Shown here: one piece after another, positions 1,497-7,940 of the stretch
How the letters are laid out: every line of letters starts with the position of its first letter
How positions within the stretch are numbered: the first letter of the stretch is position 1
Assembly: GCA_902524385.1 (NCBI GenBank)
Contig: CABZCZ010000012.1
Span: 1-46,873 of the forward strand
Reading direction: 5' to 3'
DNA: 46,873 bases
Source: an uncultured Alphaproteobacteria bacterium
GTDB taxonomy: Bacteria; Pseudomonadota; Alphaproteobacteria; HIMB59; GCA-002718135
Notes under the pieces: generated by a model
The model's input: the letters and a program-made list of their open reading frames with translations, nothing else
The model's database searches: none
What the model was told of the DNA's origin: nothing
Made by a program: the position numbers and the translations under genes

Positions 1497-1901
1497 TCAG
1501 TTCTTTAATTTGCAATTTTCACACAAACCATAAATTTCAAGACAGTGTTTATTATATTTAAAATTATTTTTATCAGCTTGTTTAGAAAAATAAGAAAATA
1601 AATTGTTTCCAATTAATTCAGTAACATTATCGCATTTTTCACAAATTAAAAAAGATGTAGAGGTTTTTGCATTACATCCTTCATGTTTACAAGCAACGTA
1701 AGAATTTCTACTTTCTATTTTATGGACTTTTCCAATTTCAATTAATTTATCGAGTGCCCTGTAAACTTGAAGAGGAGATTTTATTCCCTTTTTTTGTATA
1801 TCATAAAGAATTGTATAAGCTTTCATCGGTTCAGAAGAGTTTTCTAAAACTCCAAGAACTGTTTTTTGATTTTTGGTTAAATTTTCTGATGCTAATGCCA
1901 T
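1497..1901 (-). CDS. zur: Fur-family zinc uptake regulator Zur
   Basis: Zinc-responsive repressor, 134 residues from the ATG at 1901. An in-frame TTG nine bases upstream would add three residues but the ATG has a GAG three bases closer and gives the usual N-terminus. Seen: a winged-helix segment with LQVYRALDKLIEIGKVHKIES, as in Zur proteins, then two CxxC pairs (C87/C90 in LICEKC and C127/C130 in GLCENC) that form the structural zinc site, plus C71/C76 near the regulatory site. It lies 23 bases past znuB on the same strand, so znuC-znuB-zur is probably one autoregulated transcript from the operator at 3490-3509. Fur, Mur or PerR are less likely because of the znu context and the Zur-like palindrome. 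Confidence 0.9.
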   Translation of the reverse strand: MALASENLTKNQKTVLGVLENSSEPMKAYTILYDIQKKGIKSPLQVYRALDKLIEIGKVHKIESRNSYVACKHEGCNAKTSTSFLICEKCDNVTELIGNNLFSYFSKQADKNNFKYNKHCLEIYGLCENCKLKN

Positions 1902-1924
1902 AAATCTCAATTACCAAATTGTTT

Positions 1925-2728
1925 TCATTTTTGCAACTTACCTTTCAACTGTAATGGAATTAGAGAAATAATAAATAATATTAGTGCTATAACAATAATT
2001 GATGGTCCTGAAGAGGTATTCAATTCTAAAGAAGTAAATAAACCAATTGTAACAGATAAAATTCCAATTAATATAGCTACAAATACCATTTGCTTTGGAT
2101 TGTTAGTGATATTTCTCGATGCCGCTGCCGGTATTATTAGTAATCCTGTAATTAAAAGAGTCCCAATCATTTTTATAGATAATGCAATAACTCCAGCAAG
2201 TAGTAGGGTAAAAATCATATTGTATATGTTAGGTTGCATCCCCTCTGCTGAAGCTAGATCATAATTAACTGTAGCAGAAAATAATGATTTCCAAATAAAA
2301 TATAAAATTCCTAAAATTATAAAACCACCAATCCAAACTAAGGCAATATCTTGAAGAGTCACTGCTAAGATATCGCCAAAAAGTAAACCCATAATATCAA
2401 AACGAATACTTGATAAAAAACCCATTAAAACCAAACCAATTGCAAGAGTAGAGTGAGCTAATAATCCAAGTAATGAATCACCAGCTAATCTAGTCCTCTT
2501 TTGAAGGTGAAGAAGTAGTAAAGCAATAACTGCAGATATTACAAATACTGAAAAGGCAATATTTAAACTAAAAGCATAAGCTAAAGTAACTCCTAACAAA
2601 GCGGAGTGAGCTAAAGTATCACCAAAATAAGACAGTCTCCTCCAAATTACTAAGCAACCTAGTGGCCCTGTAATTATTGCAATACCAATACCGGCAACTA
2701 ATGCTCTAGTAAAAAAATCATCTAACAT
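1925..2728 (-). CDS. znuB: Zinc ABC transporter permease ZnuB
   Basis: Inner-membrane permease of the high-affinity zinc importer, 267 residues, family ABC-3 (PF00950). The sequence has about eight hydrophobic spans and the family signature around ITGPLGCLVIWRRLSYFGDTLAHSALLG-like residues at 19-46, with the D-x-x-A-H-S-A-L motif that is typical of zinc/manganese permeases. Its ATG overlaps the stop of znuC by one base (TAATG), which indicates translational coupling. Works with ZnuC (ATPase) and the periplasmic ZnuA encoded divergently. A manganese transporter is the alternative, but the linked Zur-type regulator and COG0523 GTPase favour zinc. Confidence 0.93.
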   Translation of the reverse strand: MLDDFFTRALVAGIGIAIITGPLGCLVIWRRLSYFGDTLAHSALLGVTLAYAFSLNIAFSVFVISAVIALLLLHLQKRTRLAGDSLLGLLAHSTLAIGLVLMGFLSSIRFDIMGLLFGDILAVTLQDIALVWIGGFIILGILYFIWKSLFSATVNYDLASAEGMQPNIYNMIFTLLLAGVIALSIKMIGTLLITGLLIIPAAASRNITNNPKQMVFVAILIGILSVTIGLFTSLELNTSSGPSIIVIALILFIISLIPLQLKGKLQK

Positions 2729-3468
2729 TAACTTGATACACTTCCGTCAGAAGAATGTGTGTGATCATGATCGTGCTGATAATATGTTAAAGTTTTTGAT
2801 CTATGCTCACCAAATAATTCTATATAAGCTTTATCTTTTATAACCGAACTTGGTTTTCCTGAACAACATATATGTCCATTTAAACAAATTACATGATCTG
2901 TTGCAGACATTACAAAATGCAAGTCATGGGAGACTAATAAAATTCCACAATTTAGGTTTGCTGAAATATTTTTTATAATATTATAAAGGTCAATTTCTCC
3001 ATTAAAATCAACTCCCTGGACAGGTTCATCTAAAACTAGTAATTCTGGTTTTTTTGCGATGGCCCTCGCTAGAAGGACACGTTGAAATTCGCCACCAGAT
3101 AGACCATGTATTTGTTCCTTGAAAAGTTTTTCTACACCAGTTTGATTTAAAGATTCAATAATTTCATTATTGCTAAGATTATTGGTTAATCGCATAAAAT
3201 CTACAACACGTAATGGCATAGTCCAATCGATATTAATTTTCTGAGGAACATATGCTATTTTATTTGTATACCGCTTCAATGAACCTTCATCAGGTTCAAG
3301 AATATTAAGTACCATTTTAGCTGTTGTAGTTTTTCCAGAACCATTGGGTCCAATTAGGGTAACTATTTGACCACTTTTTACCTCAAGAGATACACCTCTT
3401 ATCAACCATTTTGGTGACTTATAAATCCCTGCGTTCTCTAAACTTACCAATAAATTATTTTTACTCAT
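2728..3468 (-). CDS. znuC: Zinc ABC transporter ATPase ZnuC
   Basis: ATP-binding subunit of the zinc importer, 246 residues, cytoplasmic face of the membrane. Walker A GPNGSGKTT is at about residues 40-48, the ABC signature LSGGEFQRVLLARA and Walker B LLVLDEP follow, then the switch His in LLVSHDLHFVM. The C-terminus ends in a short His/Asp stretch (HDHDHTH, about 231-238), a feature common in zinc-handling proteins and echoed by ZnuA and the GTPase in this cluster. First gene of the leftward znuC-znuB-zur operon; its ATG is 21 bases from the Zur palindrome, so binding there should block the promoter. Confidence 0.95.
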   Translation of the reverse strand: MSKNNLLVSLENAGIYKSPKWLIRGVSLEVKSGQIVTLIGPNGSGKTTTAKMVLNILEPDEGSLKRYTNKIAYVPQKINIDWTMPLRVVDFMRLTNNLSNNEIIESLNQTGVEKLFKEQIHGLSGGEFQRVLLARAIAKKPELLVLDEPVQGVDFNGEIDLYNIIKNISANLNCGILLVSHDLHFVMSATDHVICLNGHICCSGKPSSVIKDKAYIELFGEHRSKTLTYYQHDHDHTHSSDGSVSS

Positions 3469-3489: not shown

Positions 3490-3509
3490 TGTAATATTAT
3501 AACATTACA
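3490..3509. promoter_or_regulatory. Zur operator between znuC and znuA
   Basis: The 20-base sequence TGTAATATTATAACATTACA is an inverted repeat with 9 of 10 matched positions per half. It lies in the 77-base space between the divergent znuC and znuA genes and resembles known alphaproteobacterial Zur sites built around GTTATAACATTAC-type half-sites. One dimer site here would control both znuCB-zur and znuA. The assignment is by pattern and context, not by experiment. Confidence 0.85.
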
Positions 3510-3545: not shown

Positions 3546-4592
3546 ATGAAACAAACGAACTTTTTTCTACATATTTTTAAGATTATTTTGTTTTCAGGAA
3601 TTCTTGTTGCAACTGCATCTGCTAGAGCAGAGCTAAAAGTTGTTACCACAATTAAACCACTACATTCATTGATTTCTAATGTTATGGATGGAGTAGGTGA
3701 ACCTGGACTCATAATTGATGGAAGTATATCACCACACAGTTTTACAATGAAACCTTCTCATGCGAAAATGCTTGAGGAAGCAGATGTCATTTTTTGGATT
3801 GGAGAGGGTATTGAAACATCAATGGAAGAACCTCTAGACTCAATTGCTAAAGATGCGGAAGTAATTGAGTTTATGGAACTTGATACAATTGCTAAATTAA
3901 AATTTAGAGAAGAATCAATTTTTGGCGACCACGATGATCATGACGATCACGATGACCACGACGACCACGATGATCATGACGATCACGATGACCACGACGA
4001 CCACGATGATCATGACGATCACGATGACCACGACGACCATGATGATCACGACGACAACGATGATCATGATCATCACGGCCATGCACACGGTGAATTTGAT
4101 GCTCACATTTGGCTAGATCCAATGAATGCTAAAGAAATGGTTCATGAAATAGCTCATGAGTTAGGTGATTTAGATCCTGCCAATAAAGAGAAATATGAAG
4201 CAAATGCTGAAGCAACAATTAAAGCTTTAGATCAGCTTATTAGTGATGTTGGTACAGATATTAATTCTGATGCAAAATTTGTTGTGTTCCATGACGCCTA
4301 CCAATATTTTGAAGAAAGATTTGGTGTAAGAGCTGCAGGAGCTTTAACATTGAATACTGATGTTTTACCGGGTGCAAAGCAAATAGCTGATATTCAGGAT
4401 GTTATTAAGGACAAAGGAATAAAATGTATTTTTTCTGAACCTCAATTTAATCCAAAGATAATCACGACTATAGCTGAAGATATGAATATCAAAACTGGTG
4501 TCTTTGATCCTCTGGGTGCAAACATCGACCCTGGTAAGTCACTTTACTTTAAGTTGATATCAAATCTCGGTAACGAGCTTAAAGGCTGTTAG
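3546..4592 (+). CDS. znuA: Periplasmic zinc-binding protein ZnuA with long His/Asp tract
   Basis: Solute-binding protein of the zinc importer, 348 residues. A Sec signal peptide is visible (hydrophobic stretch 9-24, likely cleavage after ASARA, residue 28). The cluster A-I ligands can be placed: H64 (SPHSF), H187 (DAHIWLDP), H249 (VFHDAY) and D321 (VFDPLGA). Between the first two lies the family's flexible loop, here expanded to about 55 residues of nearly pure His-Asp-Asp triplets (127-182) ending in HDHHGHAHG. This tract likely captures Zn2+ and delivers it to the site, as in other ZnuA proteins with charged His loops, but it is unusually long and regular. Expression is expected from the shared Zur operator upstream. 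A perfect hairpin follows the gene at 4609-4637. Confidence 0.96.
   Translation: MKQTNFFLHIFKIILFSGILVATASARAELKVVTTIKPLHSLISNVMDGVGEPGLIIDGSISPHSFTMKPSHAKMLEEADVIFWIGEGIETSMEEPLDSIAKDAEVIEFMELDTIAKLKFREESIFGDHDDHDDHDDHDDHDDHDDHDDHDDHDDHDDHDDHDDHDDHDDNDDHDHHGHAHGEFDAHIWLDPMNAKEMVHEIAHELGDLDPANKEKYEANAEATIKALDQLISDVGTDINSDAKFVVFHDAYQYFEERFGVRAAGALTLNTDVLPGAKQIADIQDVIKDKGIKCIFSEPQFNPKIITTIAEDMNIKTGVFDPLGANIDPGKSLYFKLISNLGNELKGC
3930..4037 (+). repeat. 36-bp perfect tandem repeat (3 copies) in znuA
   Basis: Three identical 36-base units at 3930-3965, 3966-4001 and 4002-4037, each coding four His-Asp-Asp triplets with the same codon order (CAC GAT GAT, CAT GAC GAT, CAC GAT GAC, CAC GAC GAC). A diverged fourth unit runs on to about 4076. 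Exact identity including synonymous sites points to recent duplication by slippage or unequal crossover. The unit has no stop codon in several frames on both strands, which produces spurious overlapping reading frames. Confidence 0.98.
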
Positions 4593-4664: not shown

Positions 4665-5636
4665 ATGGAAAATACTTCTCAGGTTCCAGTTACTGTTCTA
4701 ACAGGGTTTCTTGGAGCAGGAAAAACAACACTTTTAAATCGAATATTAACTGAGCAACATGGCAGAAAATATGCCGTAATTGTAAATGAATTTGGAGAGC
4801 AGGGAATTGATAATGACCTTGTTGTTGATGCAGACGAAGAAGTATTTGAAATGAATAACGGATGTATATGCTGCACTGTTAGAGGCGATTTAATAAGAAT
4901 TCTAAGTGGATTAATGAAACGTGCTGATAAGCTTGATGCAATTATTGTTGAGACAACTGGTTTAGCAGATCCAGCACCAGTTGCACAAACCTTCTTTGTT
5001 GATCAAGATGTTGCTGATCGTACAAAATTAGATGCTATTGTTACAGTGGCAGATGCAGTCCATTTAAGTTCTCAATTAACAGAACATCATGAAGCGGAGG
5101 AGCAAATTGCTTTTGCTGATGTTATTCTATTAAACAAAGTTGATCTTGTAGATGAAAGTAGATTAGACCGAGTTAAAGATCGGATTAAAAAAATTAATCC
5201 TTTTGCCAAAATAATTAATACAACTCGTTGTTCAGCTCCCTTAGATGAAGTGGTTGGACTTAATGCTTTTAGTTTGGATCGTATCTTGGAAGTAGAACCT
5301 GATTTTTTAGAATCAGATCATGATCATGAACATGATGATGATGTTACTAGCTTATCCTTTGTCTCTGATATACCATTAGATATGGATAAGTTCCAAGATT
5401 GGTTTGGAAACTTATTAAGGACAAAAGGTCAGGACATACTTCGATCAAAAGGAATTTTGAACTTTAAAGGTGAAGAAGAGCGATATGTATTTCAAGGAGT
5501 ACATATGCTAATGGACGCTTCACCAATGGGACCTTGGCCTAAAGGAAAAGATAGAAGTTCTCGAGTAGTATTTATTGGTCGTGATCTTGATAATATGAAT
5601 CTTAAGGAAGGCTTTGATAATTGTAAATCAGCATGA
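4665..5636 (+). CDS. COG0523 (CobW/ZigA-type) GTPase, putative zinc metallochaperone
   Basis: G3E-family P-loop GTPase, 323 residues, cytoplasmic. Seen: Walker A GFLGAGKT (14-21), the metal-site CxCC motif GCICC (66-70), ETTG (96-99), NKVD (157-160), and a short His-rich stretch [10 protein letters not shown] (217-226) before the C-terminal CobW_C domain. Known members deliver zinc to client enzymes when zinc is scarce, while others serve cobalamin or nitrile hydratase; the znu/zur neighbourhood argues for the zinc branch (ZigA/YciC/ZNG1 type). An AAGGA ribosome site lies 8 bases before the ATG. No Zur palindrome is visible in the 72 bases upstream, so it may depend on read-through from znuA. 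It overlaps the WD40 gene by four bases. Confidence 0.92.
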
Positions 5637-6670
5637 ATGCTGATTTAGAAAAACTTCAAGAATCAAATAAAACTGAACTTGAAAGAAGAGGTTCAATTTT
5701 TAATATTGGAGCCCCAGCTACGGAAGCGGTTACAATTCGTGATCAAATAGCGGTAGGATTTGGAGACGGCTCTGTAAGATTTTTTCAATCTGGATCTGAT
5801 CCTAAAACTGTTAAAGCACATAAGGGCGTTGTGTTGAGCATGACTAATTATGAAGATCATGTGTTAACTGGTGGAGACGATGGACGTTTTCTAAAAATAT
5901 CATCCGATGGAAATATTGATGAAATTTTTAATTTTGGTTCAAAGTGGGTTGATTGTGTAGCTTCCCACAAAGATACTAAAGTTTGTTCATCAGGTAAAAA
6001 TGTTTATATTTGGACAAAAAACAAAGATAAACCACAAACTTTAGAGCATCAAAGTACTGTTGCTGGATTAGCATTTGATAATAAAGGCAAGCGCCTCGCG
6101 GTCTCAAGATATGGTGGAGTAACAGTGTGGAAACTAAATAATAATAAATGGACATCATCAAATTTTACATGGAAAGGATCGCATGGAACTGTAACGTTTA
6201 GCCCAGATACAAAATATATTGTTACAGCGATGCAAGAAAATCAAATTCATGGTTGGCGCTTAAACGATAAAGCTGATTTAGCAATGAGAGGTTACCCATC
6301 AAAAATTAAAAGTTTTACTTGGGTTGGTGATACACCATATTTGGTAACATCTGGATCAAGTGATGCAGTTTGCTGGCCATTTGATGGTAAAGAAGGACCA
6401 ATGGGAAGAAAGCCAATTGTTGTTGCAAACGGTGGTAAAGAACTTGCAACATTTGTTAAAGCACTAAATGGAGAAAAAGCTGTTTTCACTGGTTTTACAG
6501 ATGGGTCAGTTTTATTAGCAGAAATTGATGAAAGTAAAAAACCAATTATGATTAGAAGTTCAACAGGTTCGGAAGTTTCAACAATAGCTATATCTAGTGA
6601 TAACTCACAAATATTAATTGGCGATATGAAAGGTTCTATTCTTTTATCATCTTTATGGGCAGACAATTAA
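5633..6670 (+). CDS. WD40-repeat protein coupled to the zinc GTPase
   Basis: A 345-residue beta-propeller protein with no signal peptide or membrane span, so probably cytoplasmic. WD40-like blades can be seen, e.g. AHKGVVLSM...[13 protein letters not shown] (about 62-88), [28 protein letters not shown] (about 140-167) and [26 protein letters not shown] near the end. The segment [13 protein letters not shown] (about 198-210) and EGPMGRKP match, as I recall, a family conserved in alphaproteobacteria that has no established function. The start ATG overlaps the GTPase stop (ATGA), so the two are translationally coupled and probably act together, for example as a scaffold for metal delivery. That role is inference. 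Confidence 0.85.
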
Positions 6671-6680
6671 AGGAGAAAAT

Positions 6681-6869
6681 ATGTTTAATCGTAAAACTCA
6701 AAATGTTGAAAAAATAAGAAATCTTAAACAGTTAATTTCCAGGAAATATAAATTACCGGAAAATACTATAATAAGTATTGCCGAGCTCAGTTGTCATGAG
6801 CCCGATTGTCCACCGATAGAAACTGTTATTACTGCAAGAAATGAAGACGGATCAATGATAAATTGGTGA
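6681..6869 (+). CDS. Small CxxxxCPP protein, apparently truncated by an in-frame TGA
   Basis: A 62-residue protein, third gene of the GTPase-WD40 operon, with a strong AGGAG ribosome site five bases before the ATG and ten bases after the WD40 stop. It contains LSCHEPDCPPIETVIT, whose C-x4-C-P-P core (C38 and C43) could bind metal. I recall a family of about 80-95 residues with E-P-G-C-P-P-[IV]-E-T that continues with a W-[KR]-I-x-K-P-x-x-E-I-x-x-x-D-I stretch. Here the frame stops at TGA (6867-6869) right after Trp, yet the same frame continues with VAKSIEEIQKSDINNL up to TAA at 6933-6935. So the gene looks like an 84-codon reading frame with one nonsense codon, probably AGA or similar changed to TGA, or a sequence error. 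TGA is an ordinary stop elsewhere in the window. Confidence 0.75.
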   Translation: MFNRKTQNVEKIRNLKQLISRKYKLPENTIISIAELSCHEPDCPPIETVITARNEDGSMINW

Positions 6870-6916
6870 GTAGCGAAATCAATAGAAGAAATACAGAAGT
6901 CAGATATTAATAATCT

Positions 6917-6941
6917 AACAATTCACACTCATTAAATTGTT
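6917..6941. terminator. Weak AT-rich stem-loop between convergent small genes
   Basis: AACAATT (6917-6923) and AATTGTT (6935-6941) form a 7-bp stem, 8 with the flanking T/A, around an 11-base loop. It lies between the end of the CxxxxCPP gene and the end of the Cys-rich peptide gene, so it could serve both strands. The stem is AT-only apart from one G-C pair and lacks a long T-run, so confidence is low. Confidence 0.35.
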
Positions 6942-6958
6942 AAATTTAAAATATTTTA

Positions 6959-7042
6959 TTAACAGCAATCTCCACCTTCACAAGTACAACAACAGCTACA
7001 ACTGCAGCCACACTTTGGAGGGTTTGGATTTTGATTTTTCAT
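6959..7042 (-). CDS. 27-residue Cys-rich metallothionein-like peptide
   Basis: A very short frame that standard gene finders skip. It reads 27 codons to TAA and codes nine cysteines at positions 11, 13, 15, 17, 18, 19, 21, 26 and 27; the core is CGCSCSCCCTC (11-21), preceded by MKNQNPNPPK. CxC, CC and CCC spacing like this is typical of metal-thiolate cluster proteins. An AGGTG ribosome site (7048-7052 on this strand's complement) sits five bases before the ATG, and the gene has its own 40-base space shared with the divergent pirin gene. It borders the zinc cluster. I know of no named family with this exact pattern. Zn2+/Cu+ storage or buffering is an inference from composition and place; that it is translated is supported by the ribosome site and the strong non-random codon content. 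Confidence 0.7.
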   Translation of the reverse strand: MKNQNPNPPKCGCSCSCCCTCEGGDCC

Positions 7043-7082
7043 AATTTCACCTATATATTTTTAATATAATTTTAAAATACAA

Positions 7083-7940
7083 ATGAGAAAAGCATTAGAG
7101 ATTAAACAATGTATGAAGACTTTTGAGGGTGATGGAATCCCAGTTACCAGGGCTTTCCCTGTACCTGGAATGAGAGAAAACGATCCATTTCTTCTTTTTG
7201 ATCATTTTGGTCCTATTAATTATGAACCAGGAGGTGCAACTGGTGTACCAGCCCATCCTCATTGCGGATTTGAGGCAATTACTTATATGCTTGGTGGTGA
7301 AGTAGAACACAGAGATTCATTTGGTGGACAAGCAGAAATTGAAACTGGTGATGTACAATGGATGACAACTGGATCAGGTTTAATTCATTCTGAATTAGTA
7401 ACAGAAAAATTTAAGAAGAGTGGTGGTGTCATGCAAGGTTTACAAATCTGGGTTAACCTTCCACAAAAAAATAAAAAAGTTAAACCTTGGTATCAGCATA
7501 TTAAAAAAAATGATATTCCAACAGTGTCTGAAAATGCAAATATAGAAATAAAAGTTCTTGTGGGTGAAATAAATGGAACTAAATCAAAAGTTCAAACATA
7601 TTCACCTGTATCAATATTTGATATTCAATTTTCAAAACCTGATATGACAAAGTTTAATGTGGACAAAGATCAAAATCTAATGATCTATATTATCGATGGT
7701 CAATTACAATTTAATAAAGAAGATAAAATAGCTAATAAAGGTGATATGATTTACTTTGATCAGTCAAGTGATGAGATTCAACTTACATCAAAATCAGAAA
7801 AGGGATCCTATCTAGTTTTAGCTGGAAAGCCGCTTAAAGAACCTGTAGCACGTTACGGGCCATTTGTGGCAAATTCTGAAGGAGAAATCAAGCAAGCAAT
7901 GATGGACTATCAAGAAGGAAAGATGGGAAACTTAGCTTAA
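7083..7940 (+). CDS. Pirin family protein
   Basis: Bicupin of 285 residues. The N-terminal cupin has the metal ligands of pirins: H58 and H60 in PAHPHCGFEAITY and H102 with E104 in GLIHSE. The C-terminal cupin segment (about 180-265) ends with PVARYGPFVANS, a conserved pirin_C motif. Bacterial pirins bind Fe2+ and some act as quercetinases or redox sensors; the sequence alone does not tell which. Its last four bases overlap the end of the convergent trmL gene. Confidence 0.9.
   Translation: MRKALEIKQCMKTFEGDGIPVTRAFPVPGMRENDPFLLFDHFGPINYEPGGATGVPAHPHCGFEAITYMLGGEVEHRDSFGGQAEIETGDVQWMTTGSGLIHSELVTEKFKKSGGVMQGLQIWVNLPQKNKKVKPWYQHIKKNDIPTVSENANIEIKVLVGEINGTKSKVQTYSPVSIFDIQFSKPDMTKFNVDKDQNLMIYIIDGQLQFNKEDKIANKGDMIYFDQSSDEIQLTSKSEKGSYLVLAGKPLKEPVARYGPFVANSEGEIKQAMMDYQEGKMGNLA

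Follow-up and report, generated by a model that had tools for sequence, protein, structure and literature searches.

The bacterial metallothioneins covered in the available part of PMC7387436 use Cys together with His as ligands, and one Pseudomonas metallothionein holds zinc through nine Cys in a Zn3Cys9His cluster. In the available part of PMC13107397, a His-free Yarrowia metallothionein, which has a CCC motif, is described as taking as many as four Cu(I) into a Cu4Cys8-9 cluster that engages every Cys, the nine-Cys beta domain of MT3 as forming Zn3Cys9 or Cd3Cys9 or, with Cu(I), species of four, six or ten ions, and the seven-Cys fungal (fungi-I) peptides as binding about six Cu(I). Here we describe a nine-Cys peptide of 26-27 residues from the order HIMB59/AEGEAN-169. 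Family 1 is the family of the window (the whole stretch of DNA analysed, 46,873 nucleotides) and family 2 is the second peptide-carrying family of the same order. We think it rather probable that the peptide is the product of a genuine stand-alone micro-gene and acts as a minimal cytosolic metallothionein, with one nine-thiolate cluster, buffering or detoxifying soft metals.

The open reading frame in the window

Read from 7042 to 6959 on the minus strand, the peptide is MKNQNPNPPKCGCSCSCCCTCEGGDCC (27 residues, nine of them Cys, 33%), and it ends at a TAA (6961-6959). The clean-stopped, nine-Cys, 27-residue ORF claimed for this strand in an earlier note on the DNA was confirmed by direct reading. 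CxC, CCC and CC motifs are all present, F, W, Y and H are absent, there is no hydrophobic segment, and the short ligand-free N-terminal tail is rich in Pro, Asn and Lys. The coding sequence and the site ahead of it, both read from the sequence, are:

6959..7042, minus strand: coding sequence of the nine-Cys peptide (ATG 7042-7040, TAA 6961-6959)
7047..7052, minus strand: AGGTGA, Shine-Dalgarno-like, four bases ahead of the ATG

Among all ORFs of 15-80 amino acids in the window, this is the sole one with at least seven Cys and at least 25% Cys, and 100 first-order Markov windows of equal length contained no ORF of this kind. On sequence grounds the 6959-7042 ORF is a real, hitherto unannotated gene, and its status as a gene is far beyond chance because it is conserved in 110 of the 162 genomes of the order. 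The gene was said to overlap no other; this holds for the listed neighbours (one ends at 6869, the other starts at 7083), but two mechanical ORFs do overlap it: one, starting with GTG, has 21 codons and shares its strand (6946-7011), and the other, starting with TTG, has 35 codons and lies on the opposite strand (6937-7044). The proposed AGGTG ribosome site is likewise found in the window, as AGGTGA at 7052-7047, but AGGT is missing from 21 of the 36 upstream regions inspected (present in 15/15 pirin-adjacent, 0/8 other family-1 and 0/13 family-2 regions). A longer protein was considered and rejected; the in-frame N-terminal extensions of 29-67 codons seen in some relatives are missing in the window and in the other family.

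Common gene finders have a default minimum gene length of 90 nt, which would explain why an 84-bp gene lacks annotation. Eight of 5.8 billion predicted proteins contained the peptide (the query was a 40-residue frame, so candidate lengths were limited to about 22-70), and all eight are longer than 27 residues, seven by upstream extension and one by the altered end of the draft genome G016. GMSC predicts ORFs of at least 30 nt according to the available part of PMC11364881 and could contain the peptide. A search of 5.39 million open-licence papers gave, among the matches listed, no report of a metallothionein in these bacteria or of the peptide motif, and the word "metallothionein" is absent from the main texts of PMC10734472 and PMC10308909.

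Distribution and conservation

Relatives were present in 110 of the 162 genomes of the order, in two of its seven genera and in two families (74 carriers in family 1 and 36 in family 2). Considering the 101 close genomes, 72 were carriers, 43/61 in the genus of the window and 29/40 in family 2; nine of the 101 were first placed in family 2 provisionally and then confirmed there. No match was found in the sampled genomes of the other five genera or in the one-contig genome G061, and among the order genomes that are at least 90% complete 12/20 carry the peptide and 8/20 have no match. With this patchy distribution (five of seven genera, eight of 20 near-complete genomes and G061 without a match), the peptide is therefore dispensable.

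Family 1 is the GCA002718135 family of the HIMB59 clade. According to the available part of PMC10734472, the clade splits into two families and AG-891-K05 is the reference single-cell genome of GCA002718135; this genome is among the carriers (peptide locus L112). Because the clade divides into the GCA002718135 and HIMB59 families in that source (PMC10734472, available part), the HIMB59 family is presumably our family 2. The part of PMC10308909 available equates AEGEAN-169 with SAR11 subclade V (HIMB59) and describes a trace-metal transport that differs from that of SAR11. The "SAR11-type" genomes of the earlier note were therefore near the mark in the sense of this former subclade V (PMC10308909, available part).

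All nine Cys were kept in 103 of 107 family-1 loci and in 27 of 27 family-2 loci, i.e. in 130 of 134 loci that are not mutually independent. The 107 family-1 loci represent 50 of the 74 carrier genomes of this family, together with 55 named loci, some of which duplicate those genomes, and two repeats; the 27 family-2 loci comprise 25 of the 36 carriers and two repeats. A pattern scan of the genome contigs gave 237 stretches; comparison with the window peptide confirmed 55, and the remaining 182 should include the family-2 genomes. The four loci that do not keep nine Cys come from three draft genomes: the frame is altered near the end of the peptide in G016 (loci L023 and L044), the peptide is truncated in G485 (L154) and one Cys is substituted in G514 (L160). 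The metagenomic protein P0005 ends in CY in place of CC.

The family-2 version has 26 residues, typically M[DE]xNKPKPDCGCSCSCCCTCGDGCC[QSN], and the Cys order across both families is C-G-C-S-C-S-C-C-C-T-C-x(3,4)-C-C. In an alignment of 16 intact versions, built before loci L154-L165 were added, every Cys, M1, P6, P9, G12, S14 and G23 were invariant and T20 nearly so; CCC was present in 16/16 versions and His in none. Outside this alignment, L159 differs at P6 and L156 has a GTG start.

No convincing relative was found beyond the order in the class and phylum samples. In the class sample (385 genomes), 72 genomes had a match at E<=1, and only four genomes of the order itself fell below 1e-9; the other 68 matches begin at E 0.006, and the 16 loci inspected were fragments of unrelated, mostly GC-rich frames. 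The phylum sample (398 genomes) contained, besides the window itself, two weak matches (E 0.006 and 0.0097). An origin from phages or plasmids was rejected: viral contigs gave 600 pattern matches, none of which passed tblastn, and phages and plasmids gave none.

Selection acts on the predicted peptide

Mean pairwise pN/pS, averaged over pairs within each family and not tree-based, was 0.069 in family 1 (37 distinct DNA sequences, 14 distinct peptides) and 0.068 in family 2 (22 distinct DNA sequences, 10 distinct peptides). The frame-disrupted loci L023, L044 and L154 were left out of this set, and L156 (GTG start) and L160 were kept. Variable columns at codon positions 1/2/3 numbered 8/6/23 in family 1 and 2/2/22 in family 2, a third-position excess in both (23/37, binomial p 3e-4, and 22/26, p 1e-7, respectively). 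Moreover, in the sequences inspected, family 1 uses AGY codons for Ser14 and Ser16 and family 2 uses TCN, with exceptions at position 16 (Gly in family-1 L035, Pro in three family-2 loci). The switch between AGY and TCN needs two changes and only the residue is common to both, and therefore the residue was kept, not the DNA. As judged from these substitution patterns, selection is on the peptide.

The three opposite-strand frames were open across the coding sequence in 101/107 family-1 and 4/27 family-2 loci, in 91/107 and 21/27, and in 0/107 and 1/27, the 35-codon TTG frame (6937-7044) being the one open in 91/107 and 21/27. Since opposite-strand frames are often open, openness alone cannot settle the coding strand. 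In the two opposite frames that are often open, the third positions of the peptide fall on first or middle positions (middle in the TTG frame), so that variation there would alter the opposite-strand product; the peptide frame is the constrained one. The earlier note had proposed a conservation and dN/dS-type comparison and would have abandoned the gene if relatives lacked conserved homologs or carried a broken frame; the outcome, nine Cys in 130/134 loci and pN/pS of about 0.07 within each family, speaks for the gene.

Neighbourhood in family 1

In the window, the peptide gene lies between a pirin gene and a group of zinc-related genes:

1497..1910, minus strand: Fur-family regulator, probably Zur by context (Pfam PF01475)
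1925..2728, minus strand: presumed ZnuB-like permease, named by position
2728..3468, minus strand: ZnuC-like ATPase (Pfam PF00005)
3490..3504, plus strand: Zur-box-like palindrome TGTAATATTATAACA in the znuC-znuA gap
3546..4592, plus strand: ZnuA, zinc-binding protein of the zinc ABC transporter (Pfam PF01297)
4665..5636, plus strand: CobW/COG0523-type GTPase (Pfam PF02492, PF07683), which we take to be a putative zinc metallochaperone
5633..6670, plus strand: WD40-repeat protein of the zinc cluster (Pfam)
6681..6869, plus strand: 62-amino-acid ORF, convergent neighbour, shorter than the 84-amino-acid version in relatives
6870..6958, no strand: intergenic region separating the peptide gene from the convergent 62-amino-acid ORF
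7043..7082, no strand: divergent intergenic region of 40 bp between the peptide and pirin, presumed promoter region
7083..7940, plus strand: pirin gene (Pfam PF02678/PF05726), divergent upstream neighbour, given as context and not as part of a demonstrated system

A sigma-70 promoter scan called nothing for the peptide; one terminator-like match of the scan falls inside the coding sequence (7011-6992). The counterpart of the 62-amino-acid ORF (6681-6869) has 84 amino acids in the relatives L043 and L101, and the window is without the DUF1636 gene that comes after this type of ORF in many relatives (e.g. L004, 1023-1430). ZnuA (3546-4592) has a long Asp/His repeat (DHDDH...), and its length varies widely among relatives, with open frames of about 330-530 residues in full-length matches.

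Neighbourhoods were compared on a fixed gene list, and the nearest compared gene may be separated from the peptide by small ORFs; DUF1636 and MurJ were identified by Pfam. In the 107 family-1 loci, the nearest compared downstream gene was always convergent and was the 62-amino-acid type ORF (p62) in 46, znuA in 30, DUF1636 in 29 and the WD40 gene in two, both of which sit at contig ends. Thus, in 107/107 the nearest compared downstream gene either belonged to the cobW-WD40-p62-DUF1636 cluster or was znuA. The upstream neighbour was always divergent (pirin 94, MurJ 13).

The link to zinc drawn in the earlier note is weak: these zinc-cluster genes are the nearest compared downstream neighbours in all family-1 loci, but they are absent next to the peptide in family 2, and a consensus scan of the window detected no Zur-like box close to the peptide gene. 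With the same consensus, Zur-type matches with up to three mismatches were not commoner in the window (31) than in shuffled sequence (mean 33). No metal-sensor gene directly adjoins the peptide in the window. The zinc neighbourhood of family 1 counts as one inherited event at one location. Zinc specificity deduced from synteny was rejected as an argument, weakened by family 2, where the peptide adjoins the Anbu gene instead.

The position beside ZnuA or the COG0523 GTPase cluster in family 1 would also suit a partner peptide that depends on metal: as a small subunit or metallochaperone it would dock on a specific protein and deliver zinc or copper, and not serve as a bulk buffer. The invariance of P6, P9, G12, S14 and G23, with T20 nearly so, in the 16 versions (L159 differs at P6) points the same way. 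However, no candidate partner emerges, since no compared gene is common to the neighbourhoods of both families, and we hold this explanation to be unlikely.

Neighbourhood in family 2

In family 2, the downstream neighbour is convergent and consists of an Anbu-type proteasome-like gene (24 of 27 loci) or of TenA followed by Anbu (3); Anbu is the name that we assume for the Pfam Proteasome-family protein adjoining an ATP-grasp protein there. The divergent upstream neighbour is a methyltransferase in 18 of the 27 loci and a 306-amino-acid protein in seven; of the remaining two, L162 has a divergent 62-amino-acid ORF upstream and L165 is cut by the contig end. A znuA match was present in 30 of the 36 family-2 carriers, and in 30/30 it lay on a different contig from the peptide. 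Among the genes compared, none was common to the neighbourhoods of both families. The peptide is constant and its neighbourhood variable; we exclude a leader role and take the zinc neighbourhood for a single inherited event.

A small opposite-strand frame with a hydrophobic stretch, ending at the stop of the peptide and lying before the next gene, was seen in the three family-2 loci translated there, L046 (about 3840-3998), L053 and L061.

Precursors of ribosomally synthesised, modified peptides (RiPPs) are typically short and Cys-dense, and a methyltransferase and an ATP-grasp protein near the family-2 loci could be taken to suggest that the peptide is such a precursor, bufferin- or methanobactin-like, possibly exported and with its maturation enzyme encoded elsewhere. 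But ATP-grasp and Anbu go together, 7 of the 27 loci have another gene in place of the methyltransferase, no recognised maturation enzyme (radical-SAM or other) was found among the family-1 neighbours profiled, and no export signal was seen by eye. In addition, MNIO (PF05114) and YcaO (PF02624) were each found in 0/13 carrier genomes, of which 12 have a completeness of 90% or more, and the controls matched in 2 and 5 of 14 genomes. A RiPP of the MNIO or YcaO type was rejected, as none of the 13 carriers has the enzyme, and the wider RiPP explanation appears quite improbable to us.

Gain and loss of the gene

Ten of the 11 family-2 genomes without the peptide are also without the Anbu gene, including G061, G065 and G068 (92-99% complete); in the eleventh, G087, Anbu sits at a contig end. 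The joint absence of both genes in G061, G065 and G068 suggests one variable region. Among the 18 family-1 genomes without the peptide, a pirin match is missing in 13, a pirin of 75-77% identity is present in four, and in one the contig breaks inside pirin. Upstream of the four pirins there is a small CDGSH-like protein (by eye) in two cases, a contig end in one and other genes in one. G060 and G486 (family 1) keep the znuA-MurJ gap with an alignable MurJ-side flank and the peptide is missing there, and four genomes of the genera g279 and g281 keep the znu genes without the peptide. A tree of ZnuB plus ZnuC (19 rows; 23 loci were offered and four without full-length genes were dropped) requires at least two changes of the peptide label.

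On the upstream side of family-2 loci, a tRNA-Thr gene lies 0.6-3.8 kb from the peptide in 11 of 15 loci scanned; no tRNA was found near the peptide in the three family-1 loci scanned. In L162 (2115-3245), the tRNA-Thr lies some 0.6 kb upstream of the peptide and runs into the beginning of an ORF that has a Phage_integrase domain; a tRNA overlapping an integrase ORF is the usual look of an island site. Because of the non-carrier loci, the label changes in the tree and the tRNA-Thr genes, we conclude that the micro-gene comes and goes as a unit, by loss or transfer.

Transcript end

In L037, a MurJ-type locus adjacent to znuA, the last peptide codons and the sequence after the stop form a hairpin near 3068 (-25.6 kcal/mol, z -5.3). 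The hairpin of the L033 version is -13.4 (z -2.5), and no such hairpin is present in the corresponding stretch of the window (z +0.5). The L037-type hairpin is a probable terminator shared by the convergent peptide/znuA pair, and it may account for the GGG codon at position 25 of the L037- and L033-type versions.

Runs of Cys codons occur in attenuators, and in L037 the last codons are the left arm of the strong hairpin (z -5.3), so that a leader peptide whose Cys run senses cysteine or metal, a dual-function RNA or a non-coding regulator with a chance ORF was considered. The downstream gene is, however, convergent in 134/134 loci, with nothing co-directional to lead, synonymous changes dominate in the peptide gene, the sole Rfam match is far below its cut-off, and the L037 hairpin, which the window lacks, is better read as the shared terminator. 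The convergent downstream neighbour argues that this is not a leader peptide, and together with pN/pS it led us to reject the leader and RNA explanations, which have in our opinion scarcely any chance of being right.

Proposed metallothionein-like function

A metallothionein-like peptide is most likely by composition, as proposed in the earlier note (9/27 Cys; CxC, CCC and CC), with metal binding putative. By sequence, the features of the class are present: the peptide is short, about one third Cys in CxC and CC motifs, without aromatics, and its Cys are conserved under purifying selection. The bacterial metallothionein PF02069 was found in 0/17 order genomes, 13 of them carriers (the control Synechococcus elongatus matched), and this was counted in favour, the carriers having no PF02069 metallothionein that already fills the role. 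None of the 16 aligned versions had a Pfam or NCBIfam match at E<=10, and no sequence match was found in the PDB. This lack of matches was counted against a metallothionein, as were the zinc-free neighbourhood of family 2, the patchy distribution, the disrupted or altered copies and the often-open opposite strand.

Nine Cys within 16-17 consecutive residues would fit a single M3S9 or Cu4-6S9 cluster. The nine thiolates would wrap one metal-thiolate cluster with a load of roughly three ions in the case of Zn(II)/Cd(II) and four to six in the case of Cu(I), the Pro/Asn/Lys N-terminal tail would stay free of ligands, and the loaded peptide would buffer or detoxify soft metal ions. That the peptide is translated in the cell and binds metal, with what stoichiometry, whether Cu or Zn, and to what physiological end, are points that we infer.

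Cys-rich micropeptides can have other functions. Nine close thiols could also form a dense thiol reservoir, i.e. a thiol redox, sulfur/persulfide buffer or ROS scavenger in which metal is incidental, and a capacity of metallothioneins to scavenge reactive oxygen and nitrogen species is described (PMC7387436, available part). However, the CCC/CxC order of the Cys is conserved beyond what a simple store of thiols would require, and the two neighbourhoods have no compared gene in common; we judge that such a reservoir has a low probability.

If the metallothionein-like peptide does bind metal, streamlined open-ocean bacteria carry a metallothionein-like buffer that is unlisted in the profile libraries and literature searched; it would be a natural scaffold of very small size on which a single Zn3 or Cu4-6 thiolate cluster is held, and would mark the management of trace metals in metal-poor surface water. 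The kind of function is known (metallothionein-like, putative), and the unusually small variant appears to be new. More tentatively, and with some doubt, we suggest that no smaller kind of bacterial metallothionein is known: it would be a self-sufficient nine-thiolate CCC peptide of 26-27 residues, unrelated to known families, from a mobile stand-alone micro-gene settled at unrelated sites (the zinc-uptake locus in family 1; beside Anbu near tRNA-Thr in family 2), and a metal buffer that would be cheap in gene and nitrogen cost.

Comparison with known metallothioneins

MymT of Mycobacterium is about twice as long as the peptide, and the peptide matches no Pfam or NCBIfam model. Like the peptide as we read it, MymT is a bacterial metallothionein, with a copper role (PMC7387436, available part). 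SmtA and the Pseudomonas metallothionein (PF02069) share with the peptide their bacterial origin and richness in Cys, and a Pseudomonas protein also has nine; unlike them, the peptide is smaller, His-free and without a match to the profile, which has 51 positions and whose proteins have His ligands. SmtA has a divergent SmtB repressor (PMC7387436, available part), whereas the family-1 peptide has pirin or MurJ there.

The beta-domain of vertebrate metallothioneins resembles the peptide in its nine Cys; unlike the peptide, it is part of a longer protein, has no known homology to the peptide and is not known to contain a CCC.

The fungal Cu-metallothioneins differ in Cys order, and two of them, with seven Cys, are 25 residues long. 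Fungi-I (Neurospora, Agaricus) are like the peptide in their tiny size. The fungal proteins are eukaryotic, unlike the peptide, and neither the PDB nor the Pfam search gave a match that would indicate homology. The description of the peptide as one of the smallest metallothioneins is fair for bacteria, but two fungal Cu-metallothioneins, with seven Cys and about six Cu(I) (PMC13107397, available part), are about as small. In the same part of that source (PMC13107397), the Yarrowia protein has a long Cys-free N-terminus, unlike the peptide, but fungi-IV (Yarrowia) shares with it the CCC motif and Cys without His, and the Yarrowia protein holds one Cu(I)-thiolate cluster on 8-9 Cys.
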